A stretch of 64,000 nt of DNA from Flavobacterium acetivorans. GTDB lineage: Bacteria > Bacteroidota > Bacteroidia > Flavobacteriales > Flavobacteriaceae. Below the pieces are notes generated by a model, which saw only the letters and a program-made list of their open reading frames with translations, did not search any database and was not told where the DNA came from. The stretch lies in contig NZ_CP087132.1 of the NCBI RefSeq assembly GCF_020911885.1, positions 2,666,001 through 2,730,000 of the forward strand. The letters are read 5' to 3'. Positions 9,753 through 31,377 of the stretch are shown one piece after another. The first letter of the stretch is position 1, and each line of letters begins with the position of its first letter. The position numbers were made by a program, and so were the translations under genes.

Positions 9753-9789
9753 AATGATTGTTTTTTAGAAGAATCGTGTTGTTATCAAT

Positions 9790-10188
9790 TTATTGTAGTT
9801 TTAAAGAAGTATTATCAACTCTATTTTCATTTTTTTGGTTTAAACGTTTGAGAATTTCATTGGCCTTATCATTTTCACCTATAGCTTTCAATGACTTGGC
9901 GTATTGTTGATAATATTTAGGTTCTAAATCAGCTGTCATGGCAAATAGTTCACAATACCATTTTGCTGCTTTGTCTAATTCAAAATTTGTATAATAGGAA
10001 TCTCCAATAGTTTTAAACATGACTATGGATTTATAGCCTTTTGCTACAATTCTTTCGTAGGTCTTTACAACATCTACATAGGCATATTTATCGCTTATTT
10101 TTTCAGTTACATAGAATTTTTCATTTTGAGTATAGCCGTTAAATGAAAACACATTTAATACTATTAAAACAAGTAGGTTTTTTTTCAT
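9790..10188 (-). CDS. Truncated TPR-only paralogue of the OmpA-family protein
   Basis: 132 aa with an intact signal peptide. It matches only the first ~125 residues of the OmpA-family proteins at 7815-9752 and 17489-19426 (KYAYVDVVKTYERIVAKGYKS, KAAKWYCELFAMTADLEPKYY, SLKAIGENDKANEIL). After the TPR region it ends with a short unrelated tail and a stop; the PD40, regulatory-like and OmpA domains are missing. It lies 8 nt downstream of the PorP/SprF gene and 37 nt upstream of the full-length gene, so it looks like the remains of a tandem duplication. The open frame and kept signal leave room for a real small periplasmic protein. Confidence 0.7.
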   Translation of the reverse strand: MKKNLLVLIVLNVFSFNGYTQNEKFYVTEKISDKYAYVDVVKTYERIVAKGYKSIVMFKTIGDSYYTNFELDKAAKWYCELFAMTADLEPKYYQQYAKSLKAIGENDKANEILKRLNQKNENRVDNTSLKLQ

Positions 10189-10197
10189 AATATTTTT

Positions 10198-11106: not shown

Positions 11107-11123
11107 TTATCTTGTTTTTTTAA

Positions 11124-11146
11124 CCTGAGAATGTTTAGTTTTCAGG
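11124..11146 (-). promoter_or_regulatory. Intercistronic hairpin between adhesin 1 and its porP/sprF gene
   Basis: Arms CCTGA (11124-11128) and TCAGG (11142-11146). The same kind of stem occurs at the equivalent place in operon 2 (20370-20394). It is not followed by a clean U-run on the mRNA, so it is more likely an mRNA-stability or ratio-setting element than a full terminator. Confidence 0.35.
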
Positions 11147-11165
11147 AGTTAGATTTGAGTTAGGT

Positions 11166-14100: not shown

Positions 14101-16658
14101 CAACTATAGGTATAAGCAGCAGTTCCGCCTGTAGCCGAAGCAGTTGCTGATCCCGTGGCGTCTCCTTTGCAGTTTACATTAACGATAGAACCAATTGTAG
14201 CAACAAGTGCATTTTGAGGTTCAGTGATAGTAATTTGTTCTGTGTCAGTACAGCCTTTGGAATCTGTTGCTGTTACTGTATACGTTCCTGCAGTCAAACC
14301 ATAGGCTACAGCAGTATTTTGAACAGGATTAGTGTTCCAACTATAGGTATAAGTTGCAGTTCCGCCAGTAGCCGAAGCAGTTGCTGATCCCGTGGCTTCT
14401 CCTTTACAGTTTACATTAACGATAGAACCAATTGCTGCTATAAGCGCATCTTGCGGTTCAGTTATAGTAATTTGTTCGGTATCGGTACAGCCTTTGGAAT
14501 CTGTAACTGTAACAGTATAGGTGCCCGCAGTCAAACCAGAGGCTACCGCAGTATTTTGAACAGGAGTGGTGTTCCAACTATAGGTATATGCAGCAGTTCC
14601 GCCAGTAGCCGAAGCAGTTGCTGATCCCGTGGCGTTTCCTTTGCAGTTTACATTCATTACAGAACCAATTGCTGCTACAAGCGCATTTTGCGGTTCAGTG
14701 ATAGTAATTTGTTCGGTGTCGGTACAGCCTTTGGAATCTGTTACTGTAACAATATAGGTGCCCGCAGTCAAACCAGAGGCTACTGCAGTATTTTGAACCG
14801 GATTGGTGTTCCAACTATAGGTATAAGTTGCAGTTCCGCCAGTAGCCGAAGCAGTTGCTGATCCCGTGGCGTTTCCTTTGCAGTTTACATTCATTACAGA
14901 ACCAATTGCTGCTACAAGCGCATTTTGCGGTTCAGTGATAGTAATTTGTTCGGTGTCAGTACACCCTTTAGAATCTGTTACTGTAACAGTATAGGTGCCC
15001 GCAGCCAATCCGGAGGCTAGAGCTGTGTTTTGAATCGGATTGGTATTCCAACTATAGGTATAAGCTGCAGTTCCGCCTGTAGCTGAAGCTGTAGCTGATC
15101 CTGTTGCATCACCTTTACAGTTTACATTCGCCACAGAACCAATTGAAGCAACAAGCGCATTTTGCGGTTCTGTTATAGTAATTTGTTCAGTGTCAATACA
15201 ACCTTTGGAATCCGTTACCGTTACGGTATAGGTACCTGCAGTTAATCCAGAAGCTAGGGCTGTATTTTGAATCGGATTGGTATTCCAACTATAGGTATAA
15301 GCTGCAGTTCCGCCTGTAGCTGAAGCTGTAGCTGATCCTGTTGCACCACCTTTACAGTTTACATTCGCCACAGAACCAATTGAAGCAACAAGCACATCTT
15401 GCGGTTCTGTTATAGTAATTTGTTCAGTATCAATACAACCTTTTGAATCCGTTACCGTTACGGTATAGGTCCCTGCAGCTAATCCAGAGGCTACAGCTGT
15501 ATTTTGAATCGGATTGGTATTCCAACTATAGGTATAAGCTGCAGTTCCGCCTGTAGCTGAAGCTGTAGCTGATCCCGTGACGCTTCCTTTGCAGTTTACA
15601 TTCATTACAGAACCAATTGCAGCTATAAGCGCATTTTGCGGTTCAGTGATAGTAATTTGTTCGGTGTCAGTACACCCTTTAGAATCTGTTACTGTAACAG
15701 TATAGGTGCCCGCAGCCAATCCGGAGGCTAGAGCTGTGTTTTGAATCGGATTGGTATTCCAGCTATAGGTATAAGCTGCAGTTCCGCCTGTAGCTGAAGC
15801 TGTAGCTGATCCTGTTGCACCACCTTTACAGTTTACATTTGTTACAGAACCAATTGCAGCAACAAGAGGGGTTTCAGGTTGTACAATAGTTCTACTTTTT
15901 GTAATGTTACAATGATTAGCATCTTGAATGTTTACTGTATAGGTACCAGCCACTAAAACGCTAAGATCTTGATTGTGTTCTTGTCCAGCCGGGATAATTC
16001 CCCCATCAGAAGCAGTCCATGTATAAGAATATGGAGCTGTTCCTCCAGTTGGGGTTAAGTCAATACTTCCATTATTTGATCCATAACATTGTAAATTGGT
16101 CACAGCAAATTCTCCATTTACACCATTTTCAATTTTTATAGAAGGTAATGTTCCACATTTGGGAGCAATTGTGGCAGAATTTAAAGAAGCACAAGTACTA
16201 CCAGGAGATGCATCGGTCCATGCCAAAAATAGATTAGTAATCTTTAATATATCACCACAAGTATATTTAATTGGAATAGTAGCTAAACTTGTTATAGTAT
16301 TACCTGGTAGTGGACCACCACAACCACTTATTGGTCCGGACTCGGAAGGTTTTAATAATCCCGTATTTCCGTCATAGATTTCTAATTGTCCCCAAAAAGC
16401 AAAAGATGTCCTAGTTGAACCAGTGGTGTTATTAATGGAAACTTTTAGTGTTCTGGTTATCTCTTGAGGTATTTGGTCACAGGCATCGCAACCGACTCCC
16501 TCAACGAGAGTTGCACCAACTAATTCCAAATCACCAGATGTACAGGAATTTGGATTAGGAAATGTTGTTGTTGTTTGGGCAACAGCCATTGTTAAACTAA
16601 AAAAGCTTACTAAATGAAATATAAATGATTTTGTCGAATGGGTAAAGATTGATTTCAT
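11166..16658 (-). CDS. Giant repeat adhesin 1 with type B (gliding) C-terminal sorting domain
   Basis: 1830 aa. Signal peptide ending around residue 27 (MAVAQ); unique N-terminal domain to about 190; one diverged SprB-type repeat; nine 79-aa SprB-like repeats at about 264-974 (each with NVNCKG, ATGSATASATGG, YTYSWNTNP, GTYTVTVTDSKGC); three more diverged repeats to about 1200; four DUF11-like domains to about 1720, two of which end in Cys-rich linkers; and a gliding-motility-associated C-terminal domain from about 1725 (HNAFSPNGDGINETF, VEIYNRWGVLVFE, GTYYYILNY, KDGYLYLTR). Such proteins are exported by the type IX system and stay at the cell surface. First gene of operon 1. Not SprB itself: much shorter and without sprC/sprD neighbours. 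Confidence 0.88.
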   Translation of the reverse strand: MKSIFTHSTKSFIFHLVSFFSLTMAVAQTTTTFPNPNSCTSGDLELVGATLVEGVGCDACDQIPQEITRTLKVSINNTTGSTRTSFAFWGQLEIYDGNTGLLKPSESGPISGCGGPLPGNTITSLATIPIKYTCGDILKITNLFLAWTDASPGSTCASLNSATIAPKCGTLPSIKIENGVNGEFAVTNLQCYGSNNGSIDLTPTGGTAPYSYTWTASDGGIIPAGQEHNQDLSVLVAGTYTVNIQDANHCNITKSRTIVQPETPLVAAIGSVTNVNCKGGATGSATASATGGTAAYTYSWNTNPIQNTALASGLAAGTYTVTVTDSKGCTDTEQITITEPQNALIAAIGSVMNVNCKGSVTGSATASATGGTAAYTYSWNTNPIQNTAVASGLAAGTYTVTVTDSKGCIDTEQITITEPQDVLVASIGSVANVNCKGGATGSATASATGGTAAYTYSWNTNPIQNTALASGLTAGTYTVTVTDSKGCIDTEQITITEPQNALVASIGSVANVNCKGDATGSATASATGGTAAYTYSWNTNPIQNTALASGLAAGTYTVTVTDSKGCTDTEQITITEPQNALVAAIGSVMNVNCKGNATGSATASATGGTATYTYSWNTNPVQNTAVASGLTAGTYIVTVTDSKGCTDTEQITITEPQNALVAAIGSVMNVNCKGNATGSATASATGGTAAYTYSWNTTPVQNTAVASGLTAGTYTVTVTDSKGCTDTEQITITEPQDALIAAIGSIVNVNCKGEATGSATASATGGTATYTYSWNTNPVQNTAVAYGLTAGTYTVTATDSKGCTDTEQITITEPQNALVATIGSIVNVNCKGDATGSATASATGGTAAYTYSWNTNPVQNTAVASGLTAGTYIVTVTDSKGCTDTEQITITEPQNVLVTAIGSVVNVNCKGEATGSATASATGGTTAYTYSWNTNPVQNTALASGLIAGMYTVTVTDSKGCTDTEQITITEPQDVLSCSIMQDKAVSSNGLSDGEATVTPIGGNGGYTYLWDNGETTAKAVGLNVGLHAVTITDSKGCQTTCNVTISQPDVLSCSIIQDTPAKCYGDSNGIASVTAIGGNGEYTYLWDNGETTAQAIALNAGNHSVTVTDKLGYQTTCNVTVEQPNAALSATAIIVNNNNCVGCTNGSITQTVSGGTSPYTYLWSNGATTKDLNSLSKGSYTVEIKDYNGCVINYTYTIVESGIALVKTGTFNDSNSDGYAQAGETINYAFSVTNIGEVTLTNISITDPLVTIIGGPIATLSIGATDSSTFTASYLLTQSDIDAGMVINSALAIGKDSENIDVKDISGTDINNDTETITQLIQSPSIVVTKDGFYNDTNEDGITNVGDKVIYNFTVKNTGNVTLKNIIIADILPGLEISGGPIDLEPNAIDNNTFTAFYTIAQKDINAGFVYNLATVSGTPPVGEPVTSTSTDPTPCVSCPVNPDCPAETDCSNYTITPLNQTPSLVITKDGTYVDTNEDGITSIGDKVTYNFTVRNTGNVTLTNITIHDLLPDIQILGGPIDLEPNAIDNNTFTAFYTIKQNDINTGFVYNLAIATGTPPLGEPVSATSTDPTPCTSCPANPNCPAETDCSSYTVTPLNQNPSLQVTKTATVSSNGNDTDVYSFVGDVINYTIIVKNTGNVTLHDIIVIDELTGLTTQPIATLAPGESLEAILQTYTITKNDLAQDSVVNIAKATAKDPNGVAIPPASGTVTVEKASVLGCESIVVHNAFSPNGDGINETFIIDGIGDTTCYPENTVEIYNRWGVLVFETTNYNNQTNVFDGYSRGRTTISKSSGLPTGTYYYILNYTSVDLSGNIQTNRKDGYLYLTR
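13738..15870 (-). repeat. Nine tandem 237-bp repeats inside adhesin 1
   Basis: Nine copies of a 79-aa unit, countable by the NVNCKG motif; adjacent copies are spaced exactly 237 bp where measured (13927, 14164, 14401). Copies differ by scattered synonymous and conservative changes, more than in the array of adhesin 2. Boundaries are approximate to the phase chosen. Confidence 0.9.
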
Positions 16659-17417
16659 ATTGATTTAATTAAATCGTTAGAAAATGATACAATTGTAAAT
16701 AGTAAGATCTACTTCTCGGAATTGTTTTGTACATTAAAGGCTGAAACGTCATGACAGCAATTCAATCTCAATCGATGTCAGTTTTTTTATCTACTTAAAT
16801 ATAAATGGATTAGCAAATTTCATTTTTGATTAAGTAATATTGAAGTTTAAATTTAAAGAGACAAAATACTAATGCTAAAAATTTCCATTAGAGGTTAAAC
16901 TAGATTTTGTACTTTTTAAAAATGTTTGTTTTTTTGATTGATTTTTTCGTCTTGTAATCAATCTATTTAAGTTTTGTTGTATTAAAAAAAATAATGAACT
17001 GATAATACGTTTTTGAAATACTAATTTTTGAATAAATAATAAATTATTTTATTCAAAACTTCAAGAGCATGTGTTTAGAGATACACTATATTTAAGACAA
17101 GGAATTTTTATTTGGGGTTAAAAATTCAAATGCTTATACTTTATGACTATTTAAAAAACAATGTCATTAATTAGTCATGATTAAATTTATGACTAATTAA
17201 TGACATTGTTTTTTTTTTTCCGTAAAAAACCAAAATAGTCGTTTAAAGGTGTTTTTTTGATGAAAATTATTCAATTAATAAGTTTAATTAGTGCCATTAT
17301 TTAGTAAAGAGTTAACAGGATAAGTATTTGTTTTTTAACGGGTTATTTTTTTTTAATGACTTGATTTAGTGAAAAAATTTTACCAATGAGTTTAGAATAC
17401 TTAGTTTTGCAGTAATT
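16659..17417. other. AT-rich intergenic region upstream of adhesin operon 1
   Basis: About 760 bp without a supportable gene between the terminator of operon 2 and the start of adhesin 1. It must hold the promoter of operon 1 on the minus strand, but I see no exact TAnnTTTG box with a partner. The only strong structure is the 26-bp hairpin at 17153-17214. Confidence 0.6.
17153..17214. terminator. Perfect 26-bp inverted repeat with T-run, no adjacent gene to terminate
   Basis: Arms 17153-17178 and 17189-17214 are perfectly complementary (ACAATGTCATTAATTAGTCA core) around a 10-nt loop. The plus-strand side ends in a run of twelve T before C; the minus-strand side ends in six T. It has the form of a very strong bidirectional terminator but stands about 500 bp upstream of adhesin 1 and 240 bp past the operon 2 terminator. 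Confidence 0.7.
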
Positions 17418-17459
17418 AAAAAGATCCCTTAAAGCTTTCGCCTTAAGGGATCTTTTTTT
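17418..17459. terminator. Terminator of adhesin operon 2
   Basis: A perfect 15-bp stem (17418-17432 and 17443-17457; core AAGATCCCTTAA / TTAAGGGATCTT), 10-nt loop, A/T runs on both sides. It lies 30 nt beyond the stop of the OmpA-family gene. Confidence 0.9.
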
Positions 17460-17488
17460 AAGAGAGAATGTTGAGTTAACGAGTACTT

Positions 17489-19426
17489 TTATAATGCTGT
17501 AATTATAAATTCACTGCGTCTGTTCATTTGATGTTCTTCCTCAGTACATTTTACACCATCTGAGCATTTATTTACCAATTGTGTTTCTCCATAGCCTTTA
17601 GCAGTAAGACGGTTGGAATTAATTCCTTTTTTAACAAGCCATTCTAAAGTGGCTTTGGCTCTTTTGTTGGATAAAATCTCATTATACTTAAAGGTTTGTC
17701 TACTATCTGTGTGGGATCGAATGTCTATTTTCATAGTTGGATTCTGATTCATAACATCTAGTATTTTTTCTAGATCTAAAGTCGCTATTGGTGTAATGAA
17801 ATGTTTGTCTAAATCAAAATAAATCATTTTTATTCCAAAACATTTTCCTAAATCATCTCCAATAGCTACTTGACATGCTTCTTTTTCTAAAGCTATGGAT
17901 AAGTTCGTTTTTCCGGTTTGGCTTATTATATCAATTTTCTCTTCTTTAGTGGTATACTCTGTTTTTTCAGCTCTCACATAATACGTCTTTCCACATTCTA
18001 CGTTGAAAGAATAGTTTCCGTTTTGATCAGAAATAGTAGAGTTCATAAGACGGAATGTTGCATCAAAGAGACTTACTTTTGTATTTGGTAAAATGTAGGA
18101 AGTTTTGAGATCAGTTATAACTCCAAATAATTCTTGTTCACAAGAAAGTTTTTTAGTTTCTAGAAATTTGTAAATATCATCATAGCCTTGTCCACCGTCT
18201 CTATTAGAGGTAAAAAAACCTTTTCTTGTTTTAGTATCAATCAAATAGGCAAAATCATCTTTTGGAGAATTTACATCACTACCTACATTTTGTACTTTAC
18301 CAAAAGTATCATCAGCTTTTACTTTAGACACAAAAATATCTAATCCCCCAAGGCCAGGGTGTCCGTCTGAAGCAAAATAGATTTCATTTTCATCTGTTAG
18401 AAATGGAAAGGTTTCTCTTCCTTCGGTGTTAATGTTATTCCCTAGGTTTTGAGGTGTCCCGAAACTACCATCATTATTTATTCTAACTTTGAATAAATCT
18501 GACTGTCCCAATGTTCCAGGCATATCAGAAGCAAAATACAATGTTTTTTCATCTGTACTTAAAGCAGGATGAGCCGTACTGTAATTATCACTATTGAAAG
18601 GCAGTTCGATTATATTTACCCACTGGTCGTTTTCTAGATTAGCTTTATAAATTTTTATTAAAGTAATGTTATTTCCATTTTTCCCTTTTTTGCCGTCCAG
18701 ATAATTGTTTCGTGTAAAGTACATTGTTTTTCCATCTTTTGTGAAAACGGGAGTCGATTCGTTGAATTTTGAATTCACATTCTTTGAAAATGGTGTAATC
18801 ACACCAGGATTCATGGCGTCGTCTAAATCAGACGTGTATAAATTTGTAAAATTTTGATCGGTCCATTTGTGTTTTCGCTGATTGATACTTCCGGTATCTC
18901 TTGCCGATGCAAAAACAATTTTATTGTTTAAAAAGGAACTACCATAATCGGAGTATTGGGAATTTATACCGGCATTTTCTACCTTATATCGGCCTGAATT
19001 TGCTTTAATGACCTCTAAATAATTGGTGTTTTTTTTGAAAATTTTTCCTCTGGTATCGTTTCCTGATTTTTGATTGAATAAGGCTAACATCTCATCGGCT
19101 TTACTATTTTCTCCTATAGATTTTAAAGACTGTGAATATCTGTAATAATATTCAGGTTCTACATCTTGTGTCATAGAGAATAATTCGCCATACCATTTTG
19201 CTGCCTTATCAAGTTCAGCATTAAAATAATACGAATTTCCTAACTTTTGAAATAAATCTGCCGATTTGTAACCCTTTTCAGCAACTCTTTCATAAGTTTT
19301 TATGGCTTCTATATAAGCATAGTTGTCGTACTTTTTATCGGCTGATGCTACTTTCGTTTTTTGTGCATGACTACTAAATGAAAGAACACTTAGTATGGCT
19401 AGGTAAAAGAATATATAATTTTTCAT
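17489..19426 (-). CDS. TPR / PD40 propeller / OmpA-family protein, adhesin operon 2
   Basis: 645 aa, the same length and domain order as the protein at 7815-9752: signal peptide (to SSHA), TPR-like helices, PD40 propeller (SDGHPGLGGLDIFVSK, SPKDDFAYLIDTKTRKGFF), regulatory-like beta domain and OmpA domain (YFDLDKHFI, SHTDSR, GYGE, NRRSEFIITAL). The OmpA start reads DLDKHFI where the paralogue has DFDKSDI, a mild divergence at the peptidoglycan-binding face. Third and last gene of operon 2, 19 nt after porP/sprF and followed by a strong terminator. Confidence 0.88.
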   Translation of the reverse strand: MKNYIFFYLAILSVLSFSSHAQKTKVASADKKYDNYAYIEAIKTYERVAEKGYKSADLFQKLGNSYYFNAELDKAAKWYGELFSMTQDVEPEYYYRYSQSLKSIGENSKADEMLALFNQKSGNDTRGKIFKKNTNYLEVIKANSGRYKVENAGINSQYSDYGSSFLNNKIVFASARDTGSINQRKHKWTDQNFTNLYTSDLDDAMNPGVITPFSKNVNSKFNESTPVFTKDGKTMYFTRNNYLDGKKGKNGNNITLIKIYKANLENDQWVNIIELPFNSDNYSTAHPALSTDEKTLYFASDMPGTLGQSDLFKVRINNDGSFGTPQNLGNNINTEGRETFPFLTDENEIYFASDGHPGLGGLDIFVSKVKADDTFGKVQNVGSDVNSPKDDFAYLIDTKTRKGFFTSNRDGGQGYDDIYKFLETKKLSCEQELFGVITDLKTSYILPNTKVSLFDATFRLMNSTISDQNGNYSFNVECGKTYYVRAEKTEYTTKEEKIDIISQTGKTNLSIALEKEACQVAIGDDLGKCFGIKMIYFDLDKHFITPIATLDLEKILDVMNQNPTMKIDIRSHTDSRQTFKYNEILSNKRAKATLEWLVKKGINSNRLTAKGYGETQLVNKCSDGVKCTEEEHQMNRRSEFIITAL

Positions 19427-19445
19427 ATGAAGCTACTATTTATTT

Positions 19446-20354
19446 TTAAAAGAATCTAGGGGTAGTTATTTTATCATTTTTCTTAAATAACTCATATCGG
19501 AAAAAGATTTCATGAGATCCTGAATTGTAGTGCTTTAATTGGGTAGTTTCATGATCGTAAGCATAGCCTATATACAAAGCATCAGAAATTTGAAATCCAG
19601 CCATTGCACTTAGAGCAGCACTCCATCTGTAGGAGGCTCCAAGCATAAATTTATCATTGAATAGAAAGTTACCAGAAATATCGGCCTGGAGAGGAGCTCC
19701 CTTGATCATTTTAGTAAGTAGGGCAGGCTTGAATTTTACGGAAGTATTCAAATCAAACACATATCCAGCAATCAGATAAGAAGTTATTTTTTCTTTTGCA
19801 ATTGCAACATCATTGTCATTGTATCGATTCGTTTCTATGAAATTCGGAACTGATAGTCCCAGATAAGCTTTGTCTGAATGGAGATATACTCCAGCTCCTA
19901 TATTTGGGGTAAATTTATTAAAACTTTCCAATGATACATCACCATATACTTTAGGTGTCAATTTTGTTCCATCTAAATCAAATAAATTAGCTGTTGCTTT
20001 AACACCAAATGAAAGCTTAAATGTTTCCGAAGTTGGGACAGTATACGATAAGTCTGCTGAAATTGTATTTTCATGAGTGGGCCCAATTCTATCATTTATA
20101 ACCGAAACTCCTAAACCTAAGTTACTTCCGTTTAAAGGAGTATTTATTGACACGGCATTAGTTACTGGCGCTCCATCTAGTCCTACCCATTGAGTACGGT
20201 GCAAAGCAAATATACTCATAGCTCCTCTAGATCCTGCATAAGCAGGATTAACAGTAATTGTGTTGTACATGTATTGCGTGAATTGTGAATCTTGTTGTGC
20301 ATAACTTACAATTCCTGCAAACAGTAAAGCGAATAATATTATTTTTTTCTTCAT
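19446..20354 (-). CDS. PorP/SprF family type IX secretion outer-membrane protein, operon 2
   Basis: 302 aa, the same length as its paralogue at 10198-11106. Signal peptide to VSYA, then QQDSQFTQYMYNTITVNPAYAGSRG; beta-barrel pattern; TPRFF end. It differs from its paralogue mainly in a central extracellular-type loop (KLTPKVYGDVSLESFN against KLNPVDDDPSLHDYN). By position it is the dedicated partner of the 3654-aa adhesin 58 nt upstream. PorP/SprF partners are required for type B-sorted cargo in F. johnsoniae. Confidence 0.92.
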   Translation of the reverse strand: MKKKIILFALLFAGIVSYAQQDSQFTQYMYNTITVNPAYAGSRGAMSIFALHRTQWVGLDGAPVTNAVSINTPLNGSNLGLGVSVINDRIGPTHENTISADLSYTVPTSETFKLSFGVKATANLFDLDGTKLTPKVYGDVSLESFNKFTPNIGAGVYLHSDKAYLGLSVPNFIETNRYNDNDVAIAKEKITSYLIAGYVFDLNTSVKFKPALLTKMIKGAPLQADISGNFLFNDKFMLGASYRWSAALSAMAGFQISDALYIGYAYDHETTQLKHYNSGSHEIFFRYELFKKNDKITTPRFF

Positions 20355-20412: not shown

Positions 20413-23400
20413 TTATCTTGTAAGGTATAAATACCCGTCTTTCTTATTAGTCTGAATCTTACCAAGTGTATCAACAGAAGTGTAATTCAAGATGTAATAA
20501 TATGTTCCCGTTGGCAAACCTGAAGATTGACTTATAGTAGTTCTACCTCGTGAGATTCCATTAAAGCTATTGGTTGTATTGTTATAATTTTTAGTTTCAA
20601 AAACCAATACACCCCATCGATTGTATATTTCAACTGTGTTCTCAGGATAACATTCAACATCTTCAATATTGTCAATTTCAAAACTGTCGTTTATACCATC
20701 ATTGTTAGGTGTAAAAGCATTATGTACCTCAATAGCACCACAACCCAATACAATTCCACAATCTTGGTTTATAATAGTTATTTTTACAAAATAAGTTATA
20801 GGACAACTTTCAATCATAACCTGATATTCAAAATTGTACTCTCCAACCGCTAGATTATAGGGCTTAAACTCACTGTCACTTAATACAATATTTCTATCAT
20901 TAGTCCAACTGCCGGTTAAAGGAGTGCCAGTTGGAAGATAACTATTCAAACTAATAGTTGATGTTCTGTCTGTATTACATATAGGTTCAGGAATTATAGG
21001 TTCTGTAGCATTAGCCTGCGTAATTTCTTGGTCGCCCAATACAATTATACAAGTAGGATTTGCTGCATCGCGAATCTGTACGCTATAAGTAGCATTGGCC
21101 AGAGCGGAGAAGTTCCCGCTAGTTTGCCAAGCACCAGCATCCAATCGGTATTCATAAGTTCCATAACCACCAGCAGGAGCAGTCACGCTAATGGTTCCAT
21201 CATTGGCGCCATTACAAGTCACATTGGTTTTAGCAACAGTGGCTGTTAAAGCATCTGGCTGCGTAATGATTTGGTCGCCCAATACAATTACACAAGTAGG
21301 ATTTGCTGCATCGCGAATCTGTACGCTATAAGTAGCATTGGCCAGAGCGGAGAAGTTCCCGCTAGTTTGCCAAGCACCAGTATCCAATCGGTATTCATAA
21401 GTTCCATAACCACCAGTTGGAGCAGTTATGGTAATGGTTCCATCATTAGCGCCATTACAAGTCACATTTGTTTTAGCAATAGTGGCTGTTAAGGCATCTG
21501 GCTGCGTGATGATTTGGTCGCCCAATACAATTATACAAGTAGGATTTGCTGCATCGCGAATCTGTACGCTATAAGTAGCATTGGCCAAAGCGGAGAAGTT
21601 CCCGCTAGTTTGCCAAGCACCAGCATCCAATCGGTATTCATAAGTTCCATAACCACCAGTTGGAGCAGTTATGGTAATGGTTCCATCATTAGCGCCATTA
21701 CAAGTCACATTTGTTTTAGCAACAGTGGCTGTTAAGGCATCTGGCTGCGTGATGATTTGGTCGCCCAATACAATTATACAAGTAGGATTTGCTGCATCGC
21801 GAATCTGTACGCTATAAGTAGCATTGGCCAAAGCGGAGAAGTTCCCGCTAGTTTGCCAAGCACCAGTATCCAATCGGTATTCATAAGTTCCATAACCACC
21901 AGTTGGAGCAGTTATGGTGATGGTTCCATTATTAGCGCCATTACAAGTCACATTGGTTTTAGCAACAGTGGCTGTTAAGGCATCTGGCTGCGTGATGATT
22001 TGGTCGCCCAATACAATTACACAAGTAGGATTTGCTGCATCGCGAATCTGTACGCTATAAGTAGCATTGGCCAAAGCGGTGAAGTTTCCGCTAGTTTGCC
22101 AAGCACCAGCATCCAATCGGTATTCATAAGTTCCATAACCACCAGTTGGAGCAGTTACGGTGATGGTTCCATTATTAGCGCCATTACAAGTCACATTGGT
22201 TTTAGCAACAGTGGCTGTTAAGGCATCTGGCTGCGTGATGATTTGGTCGCCCAATACAATTACACAAGTAGGATTTGCTGCATCGCGAATCTGTACGCTA
22301 TAAGTAGCATTGGCCAAAGCGGAGAAGCTCCCGCTAGTTTGCCAAGCACCAGTATCCAATCGGTATTCATAAGTTCCATAACCACCAGTTGGAGCAGTCA
22401 CGCTAATGGTTCCATCATTGGCGCCATTACAAGTCACGTTGGTTTTAGCAACAGTGGCTGTTAAGGCATCTGGCTGCGTGATGATTTGGTCGCCCAATAC
22501 AATTATACAAGTAGGATTTGCTGCATCGCGAATCTGTACGCTATAAGTAGCATTGGCCAAAGCGGAGAAGTTCCCGCTAGTTTGCCAAGCACCAGCATCC
22601 AATCGGTATTCATAAGTTCCATAACCACCAGTTGGAGCAGTTACGGTGATGGTTCCATTATTAGCGCCATTACAAGTCACATTGGTTTTAGCAATAGTGG
22701 CTGTTAAGGCATCTGGCTGCGTGATGATTTGGTCGCCCAATACAATTATACAAGTAGGATTTGCTGCATCGCGAATCTGTACGCTATAAGTAGCATTGGC
22801 CAGAGCGGAGAAGTTTCCGCTAGTTTGCCAAGCACCAGCATCCAATCGGTATTCATAAGTTCCATAACCACCAGTTGGAGCAGTTACGGTGATGGTTCCA
22901 TTATTAGCGCCATTACAAGTCACATTGGTTTTAGCAACAGTGGCTGTTAAGGCATCTGGCTGCGTGATGATTTGGTCGCCCAATACAATTATACAAGTAG
23001 GATTTGCTGCATCGCGAATCTGTACGCTATAAGTAGCATTGGCCAAAGCGGAGAAGTTTCCGCTAGTTTGCCAAGCACCAGTATCCAATCGGTATTCATA
23101 AGTTCCATAACCACCAGTTGGAGCAGTCACGCTAATGGTTCCATCATTGGCGCCATTACAAGTCACATTGGTTTTAGCAACAGTGGCTGTTAAAGCATCT
23201 GGCTGCGTAATGATTTGGTCGCCCAATACAATTATACAAGTAGGATTTGCTGCATCGCGAATCTGTACGCTATAAGTAGCATTGGCCAGAGCGGAGAAGT
23301 TTCCGCTAGTTTGCCAAGCACCAGCATCCAATCGGTATTCATAAGTTCCATAACCACCAGTTGGAGCAGTTACGGTGATGGTTCCATTATTAGCGCCATT

Positions 23401-26400
23401 ACAAGTCACATTGGTTTTGGCCACAGTGGCTGTTAAGGCATCTGGCTGCGTAATTTCTTGGTCTCCCAATACAATTACACAAGTAGGATTTGCTGCATCG
23501 CGAATCTGTACGCTATAAGTAGCATTGGCCAGAGCGGAGAAGTTCCCGCTAGTTTGCCAAGCACCAGTATCCAATCGGTATTCATAAGTTCCATAACCAC
23601 CAGTTGGAGCAGTTATGGTAATGGTTCCATCATTAGCGCCATTACAAGTCACATTTGTTTTAGCAACAGTGGCTGTTAAGGCATCTGGCTGCGTGATGAT
23701 TTGGTCGCCCAATACAATTATACAAGTAGGATTTGCTGCATCGCGAATCTGTACGCTATAAGTAGCATTGGCCAAAGCGGAGAAGTTCCCGCTAGTTTGC
23801 CAAGCACCAGCATCCAATCGGTATTCATAAGTTCCATAACCACCAGTTGGAGCAGTTATGGTAATGGTTCCATCATTAGCGCCATTACAAGTCACATTTG
23901 TTTTAGCAACAGTGGCTGTTAAGGCATCTGGCTGCGTGATGATTTGGTCGCCCAATACAATTATACAAGTAGGATTTGCTGCATCGCGAATCTGTACGCT
24001 ATAAGTAGCATTGGCCAAAGCGGAGAAGTTCCCGCTAGTTTGCCAAGCACCAGTATCCAATCGGTATTCATAAGTTCCATAACCACCAGTTGGAGCAGTT
24101 ACGGTGATGGTTCCATTATTAGCGCCATTACAAGTCACATTGGTTTTAGCAACAGTGGCTGTTAAGGCATCTGGCTGCGTGATGATTTGGTCGCCCAATA
24201 CAATTACACAAGTAGGATTTGCTGCATCGCGAATCTGTACGCTATAAGTAGCATTGGCCAAAGCGGAGAAGCTCCCGCTAGTTTGCCAAGCACCAGTATC
24301 CAATCGGTATTCATAAGTTCCATAACCACCAGTTGGAGCAGTCACGCTAATGGTTCCATCATTGGCGCCATTACAAGTCACGTTGGTTTTAGCAACAGTG
24401 GCTGTTAAAGCATCTGGCTGCGTAATGATTTGGTCGCCCAATACAATTATACAAGTAGGATTTGCTGCATCGCGAATCTGTACGCTATAAGTAGCATTGG
24501 CCAAAGCGGAGAAGTTCCCGCTAGTTTGCCAAGCACCAGCATCCAATCGGTATTCATAAGTTCCATAACCACCAGTTGGAGCAGTTACGGTGATGGTTCC
24601 ATTATTAGCGCCATTACAAGTCACATTGGTTTTAGCAATAGTGGCTGTTAAGGCATCTGGCTGCGTGATGATTTGGTCGCCCAATACAATTATACAAGTA
24701 GGATTTGCTGCATCGCGAATCTGTACGCTATAAGTAGCATTGGCCAGAGCGGAGAAGTTTCCGCTAGTTTGCCAAGCACCAGCATCCAATCGGTATTCAT
24801 AAGTTCCATAACCACCAGTTGGAGCAGTTATGGTAATGGTTCCATCATTAGCGCCATTACAAGTCACATTTGTTTTAGCAATAGTGGCTGTTAAGGCATC
24901 TGGCTGCGTGATGATTTGGTCGCCCAATACAATTATACAAGTAGGATTTGCTGCATCGCGAATCTGTACGCTATAAGTAGCATTGGCCAGAGCGGAGAAG
25001 TTCCCGCTAGTTTGCCAAGCACCAGTATCCAATCGGTATTCATAAGTTCCATAACCACCAGTTGGAGCAGTTATGGTAATGGTTCCATCATTAGCGCCAT
25101 TACAAGTCACATTTGTTTTAGCAATAGTGGCTGTTAAGGCATCTGGCTGCGTGATGATTTGGTCGCCCAATACAATTATACAAGTAGGATTTGCTGCATC
25201 GCGAATCTGTACGCTATAAGTAGCATTGGCCAAAGCGGAGAAGTTCCCGCTAGTTTGCCAAGCACCAGCATCCAATCGGTATTCATAAGTTCCATAACCA
25301 CCAGTTGGAGCAGTTATGGTAATGGTTCCATCATTAGCGCCATTACAAGTCACATTTGTTTTAGCAACAGTGGCTGTTAAGGCATCTGGCTGCGTGATGA
25401 TTTGGTCGCCCAATACAATTATACAAGTAGGATTTGCTGCATCGCGAATCTGTACGCTATAAGTAGCATTGGCCAAAGCGGAGAAGTTCCCGCTAGTTTG
25501 CCAAGCACCAGTATCCAATCGGTATTCATAAGTTCCATAACCACCAGTTGGAGCAGTTACGGTGATGGTTCCATTATTAGCGCCATTACAAGTCACATTG
25601 GTTTTAGCAATAGTGGCTGTTAAGGCATCTGGCTGCGTGATGATTTGGTCGCCCAATACAATTATACAAGTAGGATTTGCTGCATCGCGAATCTGTACGC
25701 TATAAGTAGCATTGGCCAGAGCGGAGAAGTTTCCGCTAGTTTGCCAAGCACCAGCATCCAATCGGTATTCATAAGTTCCATAACCACCAGTTGGAGCAGT
25801 TACGGTGATGGTTCCATTATTAGCGCCATTACAAGTCACATTGGTTTTGGCCACAGTGGCTGTTAAGGCATCTGGCTGCGTAATTTCTTGGTCTCCCAAT
25901 ACAATTACACAAGTAGGATTTGCTGCATCGCGAATCTGTACGCTATAAGTAGCATTGGCCAGAGCGGAGAAGTTCCCGCTAGTTTGCCAAGCACCAGTAT
26001 CCAATCGGTATTCATAAGTTCCATAACCACCAGTTGGAGCAGTTATGGTAATGGTTCCATCATTAGCGCCATTACAAGTCACATTTGTTTTAGCAATAGT
26101 GGCTGTTAAGGCATCTGGCTGCGTGATGATTTGGTCGCCCAATACAATTATACAAGTAGGATTTGCTGCATCGCGAATCTGTACGCTATAAGTAGCATTG
26201 GCCAAAGCGGAGAAGTTCCCGCTAGTTTGCCAAGCACCAGCATCCAATCGGTATTCATAAGTTCCATAACCACCAGTTGGAGCAGTTATGGTAATGGTTC
26301 CATCATTAGCGCCATTACAAGTCACATTTGTTTTAGCAACAGTGGCTGTTAAGGCATCTGGCTGCGTGATGATTTGGTCGCCCAATACAATTATACAAGT

Positions 26401-29400
26401 AGGATTTGCTGCATCGCGAATCTGTACGCTATAAGTAGCATTGGCCAAAGCGGAGAAGTTCCCGCTAGTTTGCCAAGCACCAGTATCCAATCGGTATTCA
26501 TAAGTTCCATAACCACCAGTTGGAGCAGTTATGGTGATGGTTCCATTATTAGCGCCATTACAAGTCACATTGGTTTTAGCAACAGTGGCTGTTAAGGCAT
26601 CTGGCTGCGTGATGATTTGGTCGCCCAATACAATTACACAAGTAGGATTTGCTGCATCGCGAATCTGTACGCTATAAGTAGCATTGGCCAAAGCGGTGAA
26701 GTTTCCGCTAGTTTGCCAAGCACCAGCATCCAATCGGTATTCATAAGTTCCATAACCACCAGTTGGAGCAGTTACGGTGATGGTTCCATTATTAGCGCCA
26801 TTACAAGTCACATTGGTTTTAGCAACAGTGGCTGTTAAGGCATCTGGCTGCGTGATGATTTGGTCGCCCAATACAATTACACAAGTAGGATTTGCTGCAT
26901 CGCGAATCTGTACGCTATAAGTAGCATTGGCCAAAGCGGAGAAGCTCCCGCTAGTTTGCCAAGCACCAGTATCCAATCGGTATTCATAAGTTCCATAACC
27001 ACCAGTTGGAGCAGTCACGCTAATGGTTCCATCATTGGCGCCATTACAAGTCACGTTGGTTTTAGCAACAGTGGCTGTTAAGGCATCTGGCTGCGTGATG
27101 ATTTGGTCGCCCAATACAATTATACAAGTAGGATTTGCTGCATCGCGAATCTGTACGCTATAAGTAGCATTGGCCAAAGCGGAGAAGTTCCCGCTAGTTT
27201 GCCAAGCACCAGCATCCAATCGGTATTCATAAGTTCCATAACCACCAGTTGGAGCAGTTACGGTGATGGTTCCATCATTAGCGCCATTACAAGTCACATT
27301 TGTTTTAGCAATAGTGGCTGTTAAGGCATCTGGCTGCGTGATGATTTGGTCGCCCAATACAATTACACAAGTAGGATTTGCTGCATCGCGAATCTGTACG
27401 CTATAAGTAGCATTGGCCAAAGCGGTGAAGTTTCCGCTAGTTTGCCAAGCACCAGCATCCAATCGGTATTCATAAGTTCCATAACCACCAGTTGGAGCAG
27501 TTACGGTGATGGTTCCATTATTAGCGCCATTACAAGTCACATTGGTTTTAGCAACAGTGGCTGTTAAGGCATCTGGCTGCGTGATGATTTGGTCGCCCAA
27601 TACAATTATACAAGTAGGATTTGCTGCATCGCGAATCTGTACGCTATAAGTAGCATTGGCCAAAGCGGAGAAGTTTCCGCTAGTTTGCCAAGCACCAGTA
27701 TCCAATCGGTATTCATAAGTTCCATAACCACCAGTTGGAGCAGTCACGCTAATGGTTCCATCATTGGCGCCATTACAAGTCACATTGGTTTTAGCAACAG
27801 TGGCTGTTAAAGCATCTGGCTGCGTAATGATTTGGTCGCCCAATACAATTATACAAGTAGGATTTGCTGCATCGCGAATCTGTACGCTATAAGTAGCATT
27901 GGCCAGAGCGGAGAAGTTTCCGCTAGTTTGCCAAGCACCAGCATCCAATCGGTATTCATAAGTTCCATAACCACCAGTTGGAGCAGTTACGGTGATGGTT
28001 CCATTATTAGCGCCATTACAAGTCACATTGGTTTTGGCCACAGTGGCTGTTAAGGCATCTGGCTGCGTAATTTCTTGGTCTCCCAATACAATTACACAAG
28101 TAGGATTTGCTGCATCGCGAATCTGTACGCTATAAGTAGCATTGGCCAGAGCGGAGAAGTTCCCGCTAGTTTGCCAAGCACCAGTATCCAATCGGTATTC
28201 ATAAGTTCCATAACCACCAGTTGGAGCAGTTATGGTAATGGTTCCATCATTAGCGCCATTACAAGTCACATTTGTTTTAGCAATAGTGGCTGTTAAGGCA
28301 TCTGGCTGCGTGATGATTTGGTCGCCCAATACAATTATACAAGTAGGATTTGCTGCATCGCGAATCTGTACGCTATAAGTAGCATTGGCCAAAGCGGAGA
28401 AGTTCCCGCTAGTTTGCCAAGCACCAGCATCCAATCGGTATTCATAAGTTCCATAACCACCAGTTGGAGCAGTTATGGTAATGGTTCCATCATTAGCGCC
28501 ATTACAAGTCACATTTGTTTTAGCAACAGTGGCTGTTAAGGCATCTGGCTGCGTGATGATTTGGTCGCCCAATACAATTATACAAGTAGGATTTGCTGCA
28601 TCGCGAATCTGTACGCTATAAGTAGCATTGGCCAAAGCGGAGAAGTTCCCGCTAGTTTGCCAAGCACCAGTATCCAATCGGTATTCATAAGTTCCATAAC
28701 CACCAGTTGGAGCAGTTATGGTGATGGTTCCATTATTAGCGCCATTACAAGTCACATTGGTTTTAGCAACAGTGGCTGTTAAGGCATCTGGCTGCGTGAT
28801 GATTTGGTCGCCCAATACAATTACACAAGTAGGATTTGCTGCATCGCGAATCTGTACGCTATAAGTAGCATTGGCCAAAGCGGTGAAGTTTCCGCTAGTT
28901 TGCCAAGCACCAGCATCCAATCGGTATTCATAAGTTCCATAACCACCAGTTGGAGCAGTTACGGTGATGGTTCCATTATTAGCGCCATTACAAGTCACAT
29001 TGGTTTTAGCAACAGTGGCTGTTAAGGCATCTGGCTGCGTGATGATTTGGTCGCCCAATACAATTACACAAGTAGGATTTGCTGCATCGCGAATCTGTAC
29101 GCTATAAGTAGCATTGGCCAAAGCGGAGAAGCTCCCGCTAGTTTGCCAAGCACCAGTATCCAATCGGTATTCATAAGTTCCATAACCACCAGTTGGAGCA
29201 GTCACGCTAATGGTTCCATCATTGGCGCCATTACAAGTCACGTTGGTTTTAGCAACAGTGGCTGTTAAGGCATCTGGCTGCGTGATGATTTGGTCGCCCA
29301 ATACAATTATACAAGTAGGATTTGCTGCATCGCGAATCTGTACGCTATAAGTAGCATTGGCCAAAGCGGAGAAGTTCCCGCTAGTTTGCCAAGCACCAGC

Positions 29401-31377
29401 ATCCAATCGGTATTCATAAGTTCCATAACCACCAGTTGGAGCAGTTACGGTGATGGTTCCATCATTAGCGCCATTACAAGTCACATTTGTTTTAGCAATA
29501 GTGGCTGTTAAGGCATCTGGCTGCGTGATGATTTGGTCGCCCAATACAATTATACAAGTAGGATTTGCTGCATCGCGAATCTGTACGCTATAAGTAGCAT
29601 TGGCCAGAGCGGAGAAGTTTCCGCTAGTTTGCCAAGCACCAGCATCCAATCGGTATTCATAAGTTCCATAACCACCAGTTGGAGCAGTTATGGTAATGGT
29701 TCCATCATTAGCGCCATTACAAGTCACATTTGTTTTAGCAATAGTGGCTGTTAAGGCATCTGGCTGCGTGATGATTTGGTCGCCCAATACAATTATACAA
29801 GTAGGATTTGCTGCATCGCGAATCTGTACGCTATAAGTAGCATTGGCCAGAGCGGAGAAGTTCCCGCTAGTTTGCCAAGCACCAGTATCCAATCGGTATT
29901 CATAAGTTCCATAACCACCAGTTGGAGCAGTTATGGTAATGGTTCCATCATTAGCGCCATTACAAGTCACATTTGTTTTAGCAACAGTGGCTGTTAAGGC
30001 AGCAGCAGGCTCAGTAATAGTTACCGCTTGGGTTTTGGTACAGCCATTAGCATCTTTAACTGTAATGGTATAAGAACCTGCTGTAAGACTACCGAAAGTT
30101 CCGCTTGAGCCGAAAGTAATTCCGTCTTTAGCATAGGTGTAGGGAGCAGTTCCGTTAGCTCCGGCTACAGTCACGCTACCGTTACTATTTCCAAAACAAT
30201 CTATATTTGTTTGTGAAGATATGGATGCTGTAGGACCAGTTGAAACAACAACTGAAGTTGAAGTACTAATTGTACAACCATTACCATCTTTAGCAATCAC
30301 TGTATAGGTTCCACTTGGTAAATTATTGAAAGTAGCATCTGCCTGATAATTGGTACCTGCATTAATGCTATAAGTATAACTTCCATAGCCTCCAGTTACA
30401 CCACTGGCTGTTATGCTTCCTAACGATCCGTTACACGAAGTAGGCAAAGGTGTTAAAGTTAAGCCAGTTAATTGAGGATATATAGTAACGGTAGAGGTCT
30501 TAACACTACTGGCTGGAGTTGGCGTAGCTGTATCTGTGGCTGTTAAGGTAATGGTATAATTAATTGGGTTTACAGTATTATTAACCGGGAAAGAATGAGA
30601 TGCAAACACATAATTAATAAATTTTTCGTTTGGATCATCATAAAGATCTGGACTTGGAGCAACTATAATGTCTCCTGTGCCATCACCATAATTTATTTTA
30701 ATTGAATAAGGAGACTGAATTGGTGTTAAACCACCAGTTTGATATAATTTTCCTCCAGTAATATCTGTTGTAACAATAATATTATTGCAATTACGAGTAT
30801 ATGTAAAATCAGTTTTTAATGGAGCATCTACGGTAATGTTTGGAACATCAGCATAACATTGTGAATAACCCGTTCCATTACATTGAGGTGTTGAATTATC
30901 ATTTGAATTCCAGGATACAAATATGTTTTTTAATTCAAATTTGTCACCACAATTATAATTTATTTTAATAGCTTTATAATATCCTGTCTCAAGACCTCCA
31001 GTTGAATCATAAAAAGCAGTGTATATGTTGCCAGAATTGGTTGGTAGATCATTAACAAATATGTTAAACTGAACAAACAAATCATGTTTATTCCCATTCT
31101 TTTCCATATCGATAAATATCCATACATCATTAGGGTTTATAATTCCATAGTTGGCATAACTAGGATCTGAAATACAATTTAGAATTTTACTTCCATTTCC
31201 ATTTCCAATAAAGGCACCCTTTGTAATCATTGATTGCGCTCCACAATTTGTACTAACTGGGCAAACACTTTCCGTAAGTAAAGAGGTCATAGGGTAAACA
31301 ACCTGAGAATAACTTATTGTTGTTGAAAACAACAATATTAAAAAAGCTAAAAATCGAATAAAAGTAATTTTTTTCAT
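20413..31377 (-). CDS. Giant SprB-like repeat adhesin 2 with type B C-terminal sorting domain
   Basis: 3654 aa. Signal peptide 1-25 (TTISYSQ); unique N-terminal region to about 185; a PKD-like domain at about 185-300 (INYGDGTGD, ASHSFP, ITLTATD); two diverged SprB-type repeats (SCNGSLGSITASGVTGGYG, DCFGNSNGSVTVAGANG); then 37 nearly identical 81-aa repeats at about 459-3455 (TNVTCNGAN, APTGGYGTYEYRLD, GAWQTSG, QIRDAANPTCIIVLGDQ); a short unique region; and the gliding-motility C-terminal domain (HNAFTPNNDGIND, VEIYNRWGVLVFE, GTYYYILNY, KDGYLYLTR). Predicted type IX-secreted surface filament or adhesin. First gene of operon 2. Copy number in the array may be affected by assembly. Confidence 0.9.
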   Translation of the reverse strand: MKKITFIRFLAFLILLFSTTISYSQVVYPMTSLLTESVCPVSTNCGAQSMITKGAFIGNGNGSKILNCISDPSYANYGIINPNDVWIFIDMEKNGNKHDLFVQFNIFVNDLPTNSGNIYTAFYDSTGGLETGYYKAIKINYNCGDKFELKNIFVSWNSNDNSTPQCNGTGYSQCYADVPNITVDAPLKTDFTYTRNCNNIIVTTDITGGKLYQTGGLTPIQSPYSIKINYGDGTGDIIVAPSPDLYDDPNEKFINYVFASHSFPVNNTVNPINYTITLTATDTATPTPASSVKTSTVTIYPQLTGLTLTPLPTSCNGSLGSITASGVTGGYGSYTYSINAGTNYQADATFNNLPSGTYTVIAKDGNGCTISTSTSVVVSTGPTASISSQTNIDCFGNSNGSVTVAGANGTAPYTYAKDGITFGSSGTFGSLTAGSYTITVKDANGCTKTQAVTITEPAAALTATVAKTNVTCNGANDGTITITAPTGGYGTYEYRLDTGAWQTSGNFSALANATYSVQIRDAANPTCIIVLGDQIITQPDALTATIAKTNVTCNGANDGTITITAPTGGYGTYEYRLDAGAWQTSGNFSALANATYSVQIRDAANPTCIIVLGDQIITQPDALTATIAKTNVTCNGANDGTITVTAPTGGYGTYEYRLDAGAWQTSGNFSALANATYSVQIRDAANPTCIIVLGDQIITQPDALTATVAKTNVTCNGANDGTISVTAPTGGYGTYEYRLDTGAWQTSGSFSALANATYSVQIRDAANPTCVIVLGDQIITQPDALTATVAKTNVTCNGANNGTITVTAPTGGYGTYEYRLDAGAWQTSGNFTALANATYSVQIRDAANPTCVIVLGDQIITQPDALTATVAKTNVTCNGANNGTITITAPTGGYGTYEYRLDTGAWQTSGNFSALANATYSVQIRDAANPTCIIVLGDQIITQPDALTATVAKTNVTCNGANDGTITITAPTGGYGTYEYRLDAGAWQTSGNFSALANATYSVQIRDAANPTCIIVLGDQIITQPDALTATIAKTNVTCNGANDGTITITAPTGGYGTYEYRLDTGAWQTSGNFSALANATYSVQIRDAANPTCVIVLGDQEITQPDALTATVAKTNVTCNGANNGTITVTAPTGGYGTYEYRLDAGAWQTSGNFSALANATYSVQIRDAANPTCIIVLGDQIITQPDALTATVAKTNVTCNGANDGTISVTAPTGGYGTYEYRLDTGAWQTSGNFSALANATYSVQIRDAANPTCIIVLGDQIITQPDALTATVAKTNVTCNGANNGTITVTAPTGGYGTYEYRLDAGAWQTSGNFTALANATYSVQIRDAANPTCVIVLGDQIITQPDALTATIAKTNVTCNGANDGTITVTAPTGGYGTYEYRLDAGAWQTSGNFSALANATYSVQIRDAANPTCIIVLGDQIITQPDALTATVAKTNVTCNGANDGTISVTAPTGGYGTYEYRLDTGAWQTSGSFSALANATYSVQIRDAANPTCVIVLGDQIITQPDALTATVAKTNVTCNGANNGTITVTAPTGGYGTYEYRLDAGAWQTSGNFTALANATYSVQIRDAANPTCVIVLGDQIITQPDALTATVAKTNVTCNGANNGTITITAPTGGYGTYEYRLDTGAWQTSGNFSALANATYSVQIRDAANPTCIIVLGDQIITQPDALTATVAKTNVTCNGANDGTITITAPTGGYGTYEYRLDAGAWQTSGNFSALANATYSVQIRDAANPTCIIVLGDQIITQPDALTATIAKTNVTCNGANDGTITITAPTGGYGTYEYRLDTGAWQTSGNFSALANATYSVQIRDAANPTCVIVLGDQEITQPDALTATVAKTNVTCNGANNGTITVTAPTGGYGTYEYRLDAGAWQTSGNFSALANATYSVQIRDAANPTCIIVLGDQIITQPDALTATIAKTNVTCNGANNGTITVTAPTGGYGTYEYRLDTGAWQTSGNFSALANATYSVQIRDAANPTCIIVLGDQIITQPDALTATVAKTNVTCNGANDGTITITAPTGGYGTYEYRLDAGAWQTSGNFSALANATYSVQIRDAANPTCIIVLGDQIITQPDALTATIAKTNVTCNGANDGTITITAPTGGYGTYEYRLDTGAWQTSGNFSALANATYSVQIRDAANPTCIIVLGDQIITQPDALTATIAKTNVTCNGANDGTITITAPTGGYGTYEYRLDAGAWQTSGNFSALANATYSVQIRDAANPTCIIVLGDQIITQPDALTATIAKTNVTCNGANNGTITVTAPTGGYGTYEYRLDAGAWQTSGNFSALANATYSVQIRDAANPTCIIVLGDQIITQPDALTATVAKTNVTCNGANDGTISVTAPTGGYGTYEYRLDTGAWQTSGSFSALANATYSVQIRDAANPTCVIVLGDQIITQPDALTATVAKTNVTCNGANNGTITVTAPTGGYGTYEYRLDTGAWQTSGNFSALANATYSVQIRDAANPTCIIVLGDQIITQPDALTATVAKTNVTCNGANDGTITITAPTGGYGTYEYRLDAGAWQTSGNFSALANATYSVQIRDAANPTCIIVLGDQIITQPDALTATVAKTNVTCNGANDGTITITAPTGGYGTYEYRLDTGAWQTSGNFSALANATYSVQIRDAANPTCVIVLGDQEITQPDALTATVAKTNVTCNGANNGTITVTAPTGGYGTYEYRLDAGAWQTSGNFSALANATYSVQIRDAANPTCIIVLGDQIITQPDALTATVAKTNVTCNGANDGTISVTAPTGGYGTYEYRLDTGAWQTSGNFSALANATYSVQIRDAANPTCIIVLGDQIITQPDALTATVAKTNVTCNGANNGTITVTAPTGGYGTYEYRLDAGAWQTSGNFSALANATYSVQIRDAANPTCIIVLGDQIITQPDALTATIAKTNVTCNGANNGTITVTAPTGGYGTYEYRLDAGAWQTSGNFSALANATYSVQIRDAANPTCIIVLGDQIITQPDALTATVAKTNVTCNGANDGTISVTAPTGGYGTYEYRLDTGAWQTSGSFSALANATYSVQIRDAANPTCVIVLGDQIITQPDALTATVAKTNVTCNGANNGTITVTAPTGGYGTYEYRLDAGAWQTSGNFTALANATYSVQIRDAANPTCVIVLGDQIITQPDALTATVAKTNVTCNGANNGTITITAPTGGYGTYEYRLDTGAWQTSGNFSALANATYSVQIRDAANPTCIIVLGDQIITQPDALTATVAKTNVTCNGANDGTITITAPTGGYGTYEYRLDAGAWQTSGNFSALANATYSVQIRDAANPTCIIVLGDQIITQPDALTATIAKTNVTCNGANDGTITITAPTGGYGTYEYRLDTGAWQTSGNFSALANATYSVQIRDAANPTCVIVLGDQIITQPDALTATVAKTNVTCNGANDGTISVTAPAGGYGTYEYRLDAGAWQTSGNFSALANATYSVQIRDAANPTCIIVLGDQEITQANATEPIIPEPICNTDRTSTISLNSYLPTGTPLTGSWTNDRNIVLSDSEFKPYNLAVGEYNFEYQVMIESCPITYFVKITIINQDCGIVLGCGAIEVHNAFTPNNDGINDSFEIDNIEDVECYPENTVEIYNRWGVLVFETKNYNNTTNSFNGISRGRTTISQSSGLPTGTYYYILNYTSVDTLGKIQTNKKDGYLYLTR
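21012..30002 (-). repeat. 37 tandem 243-bp repeats with nine-unit higher-order structure
   Basis: The unit is 81 codons and recurs 37 times with exact 243-bp spacing and no indels. A few diagnostic sites vary: Q-I-I against Q-E-I before TQ, D/N in GAN(D/N)GT, I/V/S in the following residue pairs, T/A in RLD(T/A), and (S/N)F(S/T). The QEITQ variant occurs three times inside the array (near 23458, 25888, 28075), spaced 10 and 9 units, and once more at the end. Units 25888-28074 and the nine units from 21271 show nearly the same variant order, so blocks of about 2187 bp were duplicated. Confidence 0.92.

Follow-up and report, generated by a model that had tools for sequence, protein, structure and literature searches.

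In Flavobacterium acetivorans, the 37 tandem units in the gene of a large adhesin form an 18/19-unit superblock that is present twice. A nine-unit repeat is clear in the first copy of the superblock and partial in the second. We consider it very probable that the gene product is a single-chain T9SS type-B adhesin whose stalk grows and shrinks by in-register exchange, often displaced by many units. The window, that is the whole 64-kb stretch of DNA that was analysed, corresponds to positions 2,666,001–2,730,000 of a single-contig genome of 3,562,455 bases (3.56 Mb). The features of the locus, in window positions, are as follows.

20413–31377, minus strand: adhesin gene, 3654 aa, a 10,965-bp frame without internal stops
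31303–31377, minus strand: signal-peptide segment, assigned by eye (70 of 75 bases the same as in F. granuli)
29998–31302, minus strand: N-terminal tip and PKD-like part, then SprB-like stretches
21007–29997, minus strand: array of 37 units of 243 bp (81 aa)
20413–21006, minus strand: C-terminal region with a T9SS type-B sorting domain (572 of 594 bases as in F. granuli)
19446–20354, minus strand: PorP/SprF-family outer-membrane protein (Pfam and NCBIfam profiles)
17489–19426, minus strand: PorE-like protein with PD40, CarboxypepD_reg and OmpA domains (NCBIfam scores below the curated cut-offs)
11166–16658, minus strand: paralogous adhesin, 1830 aa, with nine a-units followed by b, c and d units

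The adhesin belongs to the SprB-repeat family, since the SprB repeat profile PF13573 matches it in 38 stretches with 1177.7 bits (cut-off 28). Its type-B sorting domain was found with TIGR04131 (42.5 bits, cut-off 35) and with CHU_C, PF13585 (85.6 bits, cut-off 27). The tip comprises about 300 residues and is followed by a short stretch before the array, with one extra SprB match (30130–30219); a second SprB-similar stretch in 29998–31302 was recognized by eye. A search of solved structures by sequence gave a weak match of the stalk to a decoration protein and weak matches of the tip end to PKD-type domains of proteases. The PorP/SprF-like gene at 19446–20354 adjoins the adhesin gene, as befits a T9SS type-B cargo, and its product is likely to be the cognate anchor and secretion partner of the adhesin. 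The accessible text of PMC9143113 has type-B proteins sit on a PorP-like partner and postulates that the ones with a PorE-like neighbour are non-mobile. Given this postulate and the PorE-like neighbour, the 3654-aa protein is less likely to be the gliding adhesin SprB than an adhesin anchored in the wall. For SprB itself, an open frame of 5960 codons with SprB repeats, at 973–987 kb of the genome, would be a better candidate. One of the nine PorP/SprF matches in the whole genome starts at 988176, about 1 kb past the last listed SprB repeat of this frame. In the window, adhesin, PorP/SprF-like and PorE-like OmpA genes occur as two neighbouring sets across 7815–20354, the second set occupying 7815–16658. 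A 132-aa protein at 9790–10188, inside one of the adhesin gene sets, has no Pfam match. The 64-kb window contained no RNA families over the threshold and no tRNAs.

All 37 units are exactly 243 bp long and in frame, which indicates that the exchanges between them are in register. The sequence-only reading had counted the units and measured their length correctly; its array coordinates, 21012–30002, had to be moved to 21007–29997. The mean pairwise difference is 7.8 of 243 bases over all 37 units, so that the chain consists of highly identical tandem domains, and 7.28 of 243 bases (97.0% identity) among units 1–36. Unit 37, at the C-terminal edge, is an outlier with 13–19 differences, as expected for the edge of an exchanging array. 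Units 1–36 contain 23 variable sites, each with two states; scored singly, 13 of the changes are synonymous and 10 are not. The earlier description of the units as nearly identical even at silent sites holds, although silent sites are about four times more variable per site (pS 0.218, pN 0.055). The four-gamete test failed for 66 of the 253 pairs of variable sites, which gives at least 8 within-unit recombination intervals when recurrent mutation is set aside. We also considered donor copies of the unit outside the array and rejected them, since all 37 DNA matches in the genome with E ≤ 0.001 lie inside it. The G+C content of 21007–29997 is about 45%, against 30–39% in most of the window. At fourfold sites it is 29% in the array, 11–19% in the gene's own flanks and 26–48% in eight other genes. 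Since the fourfold sites are within or below the range of the other genes, the excess is carried by codon positions 1 and 2.

The order of the units carries the main evidence. Read in the direction of the gene, the 20 exact types follow one another as ABCDEFGHIJECDEFGHKLGMBNDOGPIJQRDEFGST. That variants recur in a fixed order was thereby borne out: the longest identical run is 6 units, and it was matched in none of 20000 shuffles. So was the nine-unit repeat, because units 3–8 equal units 12–17, with an exact match of 1726 bp. Units 31.2–36.9 equal both 3.2–8.9 and 12.2–17.9 exactly over 1381 bp (lags 28 and 19). Over the whole array the strongest period is lag 19, with a mean of 2.47 differences in 17 pairs. 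The mean is 5.44 at lag 9 (27 pairs) and 2.38 at lag 28 (8 pairs), compared with 7.28 for all pairs. When the unit order was shuffled 20000 times, the observed value was reached 0 times at lag 19, 30 times at lag 9 and twice at lag 28; any lag from 1 to 28 was as low as the observed minimum in 3 of 20000 shuffles. Adjacent units are not especially similar (7.6 differences at lag 1, which is not below the overall 7.28), and none of the 35 adjacent pairs among units 1–36 is identical. The two superblock copies lie as follows.

25867–29997, minus strand: first superblock copy, units 1–17; its extent is given by the pairing with the second, and it holds the nine-unit repeat (3–8 equal to 12–17)
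21250–25137, minus strand: second superblock copy, units 21–36, one unit shorter than the first

Units 1–4 pair with 21–24 and units 6–17 with 25–36, leaving unit 5 without a partner in the second copy. These 16 pairs differ at 17 of 3888 bases, and the superblocks are thus more alike (99.56%) than units 1–36 are among themselves (97.0%), as in a higher-order repeat. Aligning one half of the array with the other cost 41, while 1000 shuffles gave a mean of 100.7 and a minimum of 74. The cost of copying the array from itself, counted as jumps plus mismatches, was 16, while 300 shuffles gave 35.2 (s.d. 2.0, minimum 30); with the units cut in another phase, the array cost 21 and its shuffles 40.1 (minimum 35). 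The nine-unit repeat is weaker in the second superblock, where four paired units differ by 2, 0, 0 and 6 bases. The stretch 23458–25887, described earlier as a shuffled version of the nine-unit block, was misread: it is part of the superblock pattern, in which units 1–17 resemble units 21–36.

An order of this kind could be produced by an assembly in which reads failed to resolve near-identical units, so that the unit order or number is wrong. The units differ by only about 7 of 243 bases, and assemblies of relatives do break here. We found eight named loci with a related N-terminus, six in Flavobacterium and two in Lutibacter, and in all eight the frame is open to the contig end, 363–470 aa from the start codon; matches in the genomes G019 and G025 also lie at contig ends. 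Nevertheless, our genome forms a single contig of 3.56 Mb, no stop interrupts the 10,965-bp frame, and not one of the 37 units departs from 243 bp. The longest exact repeat, 1726 bp, would be short for long reads. In addition, a block change in the paralogous adhesin (11166–16658) is independent of the 37-unit array. The closest relative found was F. granuli DSM 19729 (G017), of the same genus, which has a contig end identical to the named locus L010. The paralogue reads a9-b-c-d here and a6-(bc)3-d in the F. granuli orthologue, while its two ends are identical at 528 of 540 bases (97.8%) and 1445 of 1500 bases (96.3%). Judged from this alignment, the paralogue is a between-species case of a multi-unit in-frame block change. 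An assembly artefact is accordingly improbable.

Some units look like products of exchange themselves.

23923–24165, minus strand: unit 25 (type O), reads as an E/F fusion with the crossover between unit positions 65 and 111
25624–25866, minus strand: unit 18 (type K), reads as a fusion of I and Q (or I and D)
21250–21492, minus strand: unit 36 (type S), reads as a fusion of H and I (or H and N)

Unit 25 is exactly E before the crossover point and exactly F after it, with a net loss of one unit. Together with the missing partner of unit 5, this is the trace of a one-unit deletion. Single-crossover fusions in context fit 7 of the 36 units, against a mean of 1.26 and a maximum of 7 in 200 shuffles. 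For most of these seven units more than one parent pair is possible, and some units account for each other (H by M and P; M by H and A), so the excess is moderate evidence for exchange.

We also simulated arrays in one lineage over 400 events without selection and kept those in which units differed on average by 4 to 11. This left 60 of 180 runs with one-unit exchange, 32 of 180 with exchange of one to three units and 46 of 240 with free block exchange. The observed pattern, in which neighbours are not alike and the best lag is long, appeared in 30 of the 46 free-block runs, in 0 of 60 one-unit runs and in 0 of 32 one-to-three-unit runs. With one-unit exchange, neighbours were most alike in 60 of 60 kept runs. 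Thus, unequal exchange of multi-unit blocks, proposed from the first reading of the sequence, is well supported by the order statistics, the simulation, the fusion-like units and the block difference in the paralogue.

The same simulation bears on selection for unit order. If neighbours must differ, or if units have positional roles, the blocks would reflect function and not a history of exchange. The lack of identical neighbours in units 1–36 (0 of 35) agrees with this, as does the view, taken in the accessible part of PMC8201768, that sequence repetition is disfavoured in multidomain proteins because of misfolding. However, free block exchange by itself yields few identical neighbours (a mean of 0.43 in the kept runs). 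Moreover, silent variants move with the blocks (13 of the 23 variable sites are synonymous), and the repeats of 1.4–1.7 kb are exact at all sites. Selection as the source of the pattern is highly improbable.

We scored unit order in 14 other arrays, three from the same genome and eleven from other genomes; arrays of fewer than 6 units or with 3 or fewer shared sites were left out, and some outlier end units were dropped. A clear order signal was present in one of them, an array of 81-bp units in G010 (L077:1620-4623; cost 59 versus 72.8, z −6.9), which gave z −1.6 when re-read in 162-bp units. Two signals were weak and only equal to the shuffle minimum: a G008 array of six 459-bp units (z −2.7) and the paralogue (78 versus 82.4 in 100 shuffles). 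The remaining 11 of the 14 arrays had none. With one clear signal among 14 arrays, large-block exchange is not the rule in the family. That the array arose by slippage of one to three units and conversion between neighbours, with no large blocks, would agree with 13 of these 14 arrays, where neighbouring units differ less than all pairs do on average (25.0 versus 35.4 in the paralogue), but as sole cause here it is disfavoured and scarcely credible, with 7.6 at lag 1 against 7.28 overall and the pattern in 0 of 92 kept small-step runs. A search with a tip profile in 17 genomes of one or two contigs gave matches in G150, G051 and G331. In G150, a single-contig genome, the stalk of the homologous gene comprises 12 units of another type, 231 bp long and showing no order signal; the translation of this gene, examined by eye, contains our unit type once (70% aa identity). 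Apparently, the amplified unit differs between genomes. The giant SprB-like frames of four Flavobacterium genomes, G103, G289, G265 and G244 (L052, L053, L054 and L055), have a repeat of about 1.7 kb.

Block exchange in the 37-unit array very probably proceeds as follows. The protein consists of a signal peptide, a variable tip, a stalk with 37 domains of SprB type and a sorting domain at the C-terminus, which is expected to sit on the PorP/SprF-like protein encoded by the adjacent gene. The stalk DNA would change through in-register homologous exchange between units, or equivalent strand misalignment, with a displacement that often spans many units. The ancestral block, of about nine units, may have doubled to about 18/19, and the product may have doubled again to 37. 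Smaller deletions would then have trimmed and reshuffled the array, leaving fusion units, and the near-identity of the units would keep block exchange possible. In this scheme we infer the recombination enzymes, the direction and order of the doublings, length change within the species and the function of the stalk. The earlier suggestion that the length of the 3654-aa adhesin changes quickly is plausible.

The tip may be another changing part of the protein. The DNA around it is close to that of F. granuli, with 572 of 594 identical bases in the C-flank, 2722 of 2922 in the SprF/OmpA stretch and 1621 of 1766 upstream; six upstream genes are 90–99% identical in amino acids. The tip DNA is hardly alignable (46–56 identical bases per 100 alignment columns), and the tip protein is 27% identical over residues 26–290. 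It is still homologous, with 38% identity over residues 1–210, signal peptide included. In F. rhamnosiphilum, four upstream genes are 65–90% identical to ours, whereas the tip has 81% identity with the F. granuli tip. With nearly the same flanks and a tip of 27% identity, while F. rhamnosiphilum has the F. granuli tip, a tip exchange at the syntenic locus is likely, and the simplest reading would be that the tip was replaced in our lineage. Very fast divergence of the tip is a possible alternative. The N-terminus of the paralogue is unchanged in comparison with F. granuli (528 of 540 bases). A search of 150 genomes of the genus gave no close donor for our tip; the best match was 42% (G019). 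A silent tip cassette was sought in both genomes and rejected: the F. granuli tip finds the adhesin gene (31%) and one weak paralogue match in our genome, and our tip gives a single match in F. granuli, at the adhesin locus.

The F. granuli assembly breaks inside the array; synteny and shared units suggest that contigs C26 and C31 are the ends of one gene. The available units are 88–92% identical to the closest of ours, and the last two are alike at 195 of 219 positions, no closer to each other than to ours, so they give no evidence of homogenisation in that array. The array may have helped the tip exchange. In a rather doubtful extension of this idea, the uniform array and the near-invariant signal segment would act as homology arms. 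Incoming DNA would swap the tip as a cassette while the anchor and its partner stay, and block exchange would keep the arm uniform and reset the stalk length.

The array is a readable record of the way in which large block exchanges built a bacterial adhesin stalk. Such a record is hidden in draft assemblies, as contigs end inside the gene at all eight loci of the named relatives. In this surface protein, the tip as well as the length of the stalk may change fast. That adhesin stalks change their number of repeats through recombination is already known or proposed, and differing repeat numbers are known from Flavobacterium too. A literature search by title and start of abstract, with subscription papers mostly outside it, brought up no description of a bacterial adhesin as a higher-order repeat.

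The following comparisons draw on the accessible portions of the papers cited. Periscope Proteins are also single chains with many highly identical tandem domains, a distal N-terminal domain and C-terminal attachment, and their length change has been proposed to occur by intragenic recombination (PMC8201768, PMC9704523). In contrast to them, the adhesin described here is a T9SS type-B cargo with a PorP/SprF-like partner and a nested-block order of units. A repeat number that differs between close strains is a mark of Periscope Proteins; here a difference between species was observed in the paralogue, and the 37-unit array is broken in the relative. SprB and other Flavobacterium SprB-repeat proteins share with our adhesin the SprB repeats, the type-B C-terminal domain and the adjacent sprF-like gene (PMC9143113, PMC9870892); unlike SprB, our adhesin also adjoins a PorE-like OmpA gene. 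A gliding-motility-associated repeat protein of F. psychrophilum, likewise a Flavobacterium protein whose unit number varies between isolates, has 35 to 88 units in five isolates; the description gives unit counts, whereas ours gives unit order and nested blocks (PMC8400371). In BadA of Bartonella henselae, stalk domains are multiplied, deleted and reordered between strains, with blocks of a four-domain motif (PMC8859334). However, BadA is a trimeric autotransporter, a class excluded from Periscope Proteins (PMC9704523). In alpha-satellite higher-order repeats (PMC12385485), monomer variants also stand in a fixed order and blocks are repeated as units. The likeness to satellites that the sequence-only reading drew extends to this pattern and no further: our array is intact, coding and bacterial, with 37 units only and monomers only 3% apart. 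To these systems the present case adds a record of nested blocks in the stalk of an SprB-type protein, with a likely tip exchange beside the stalk.
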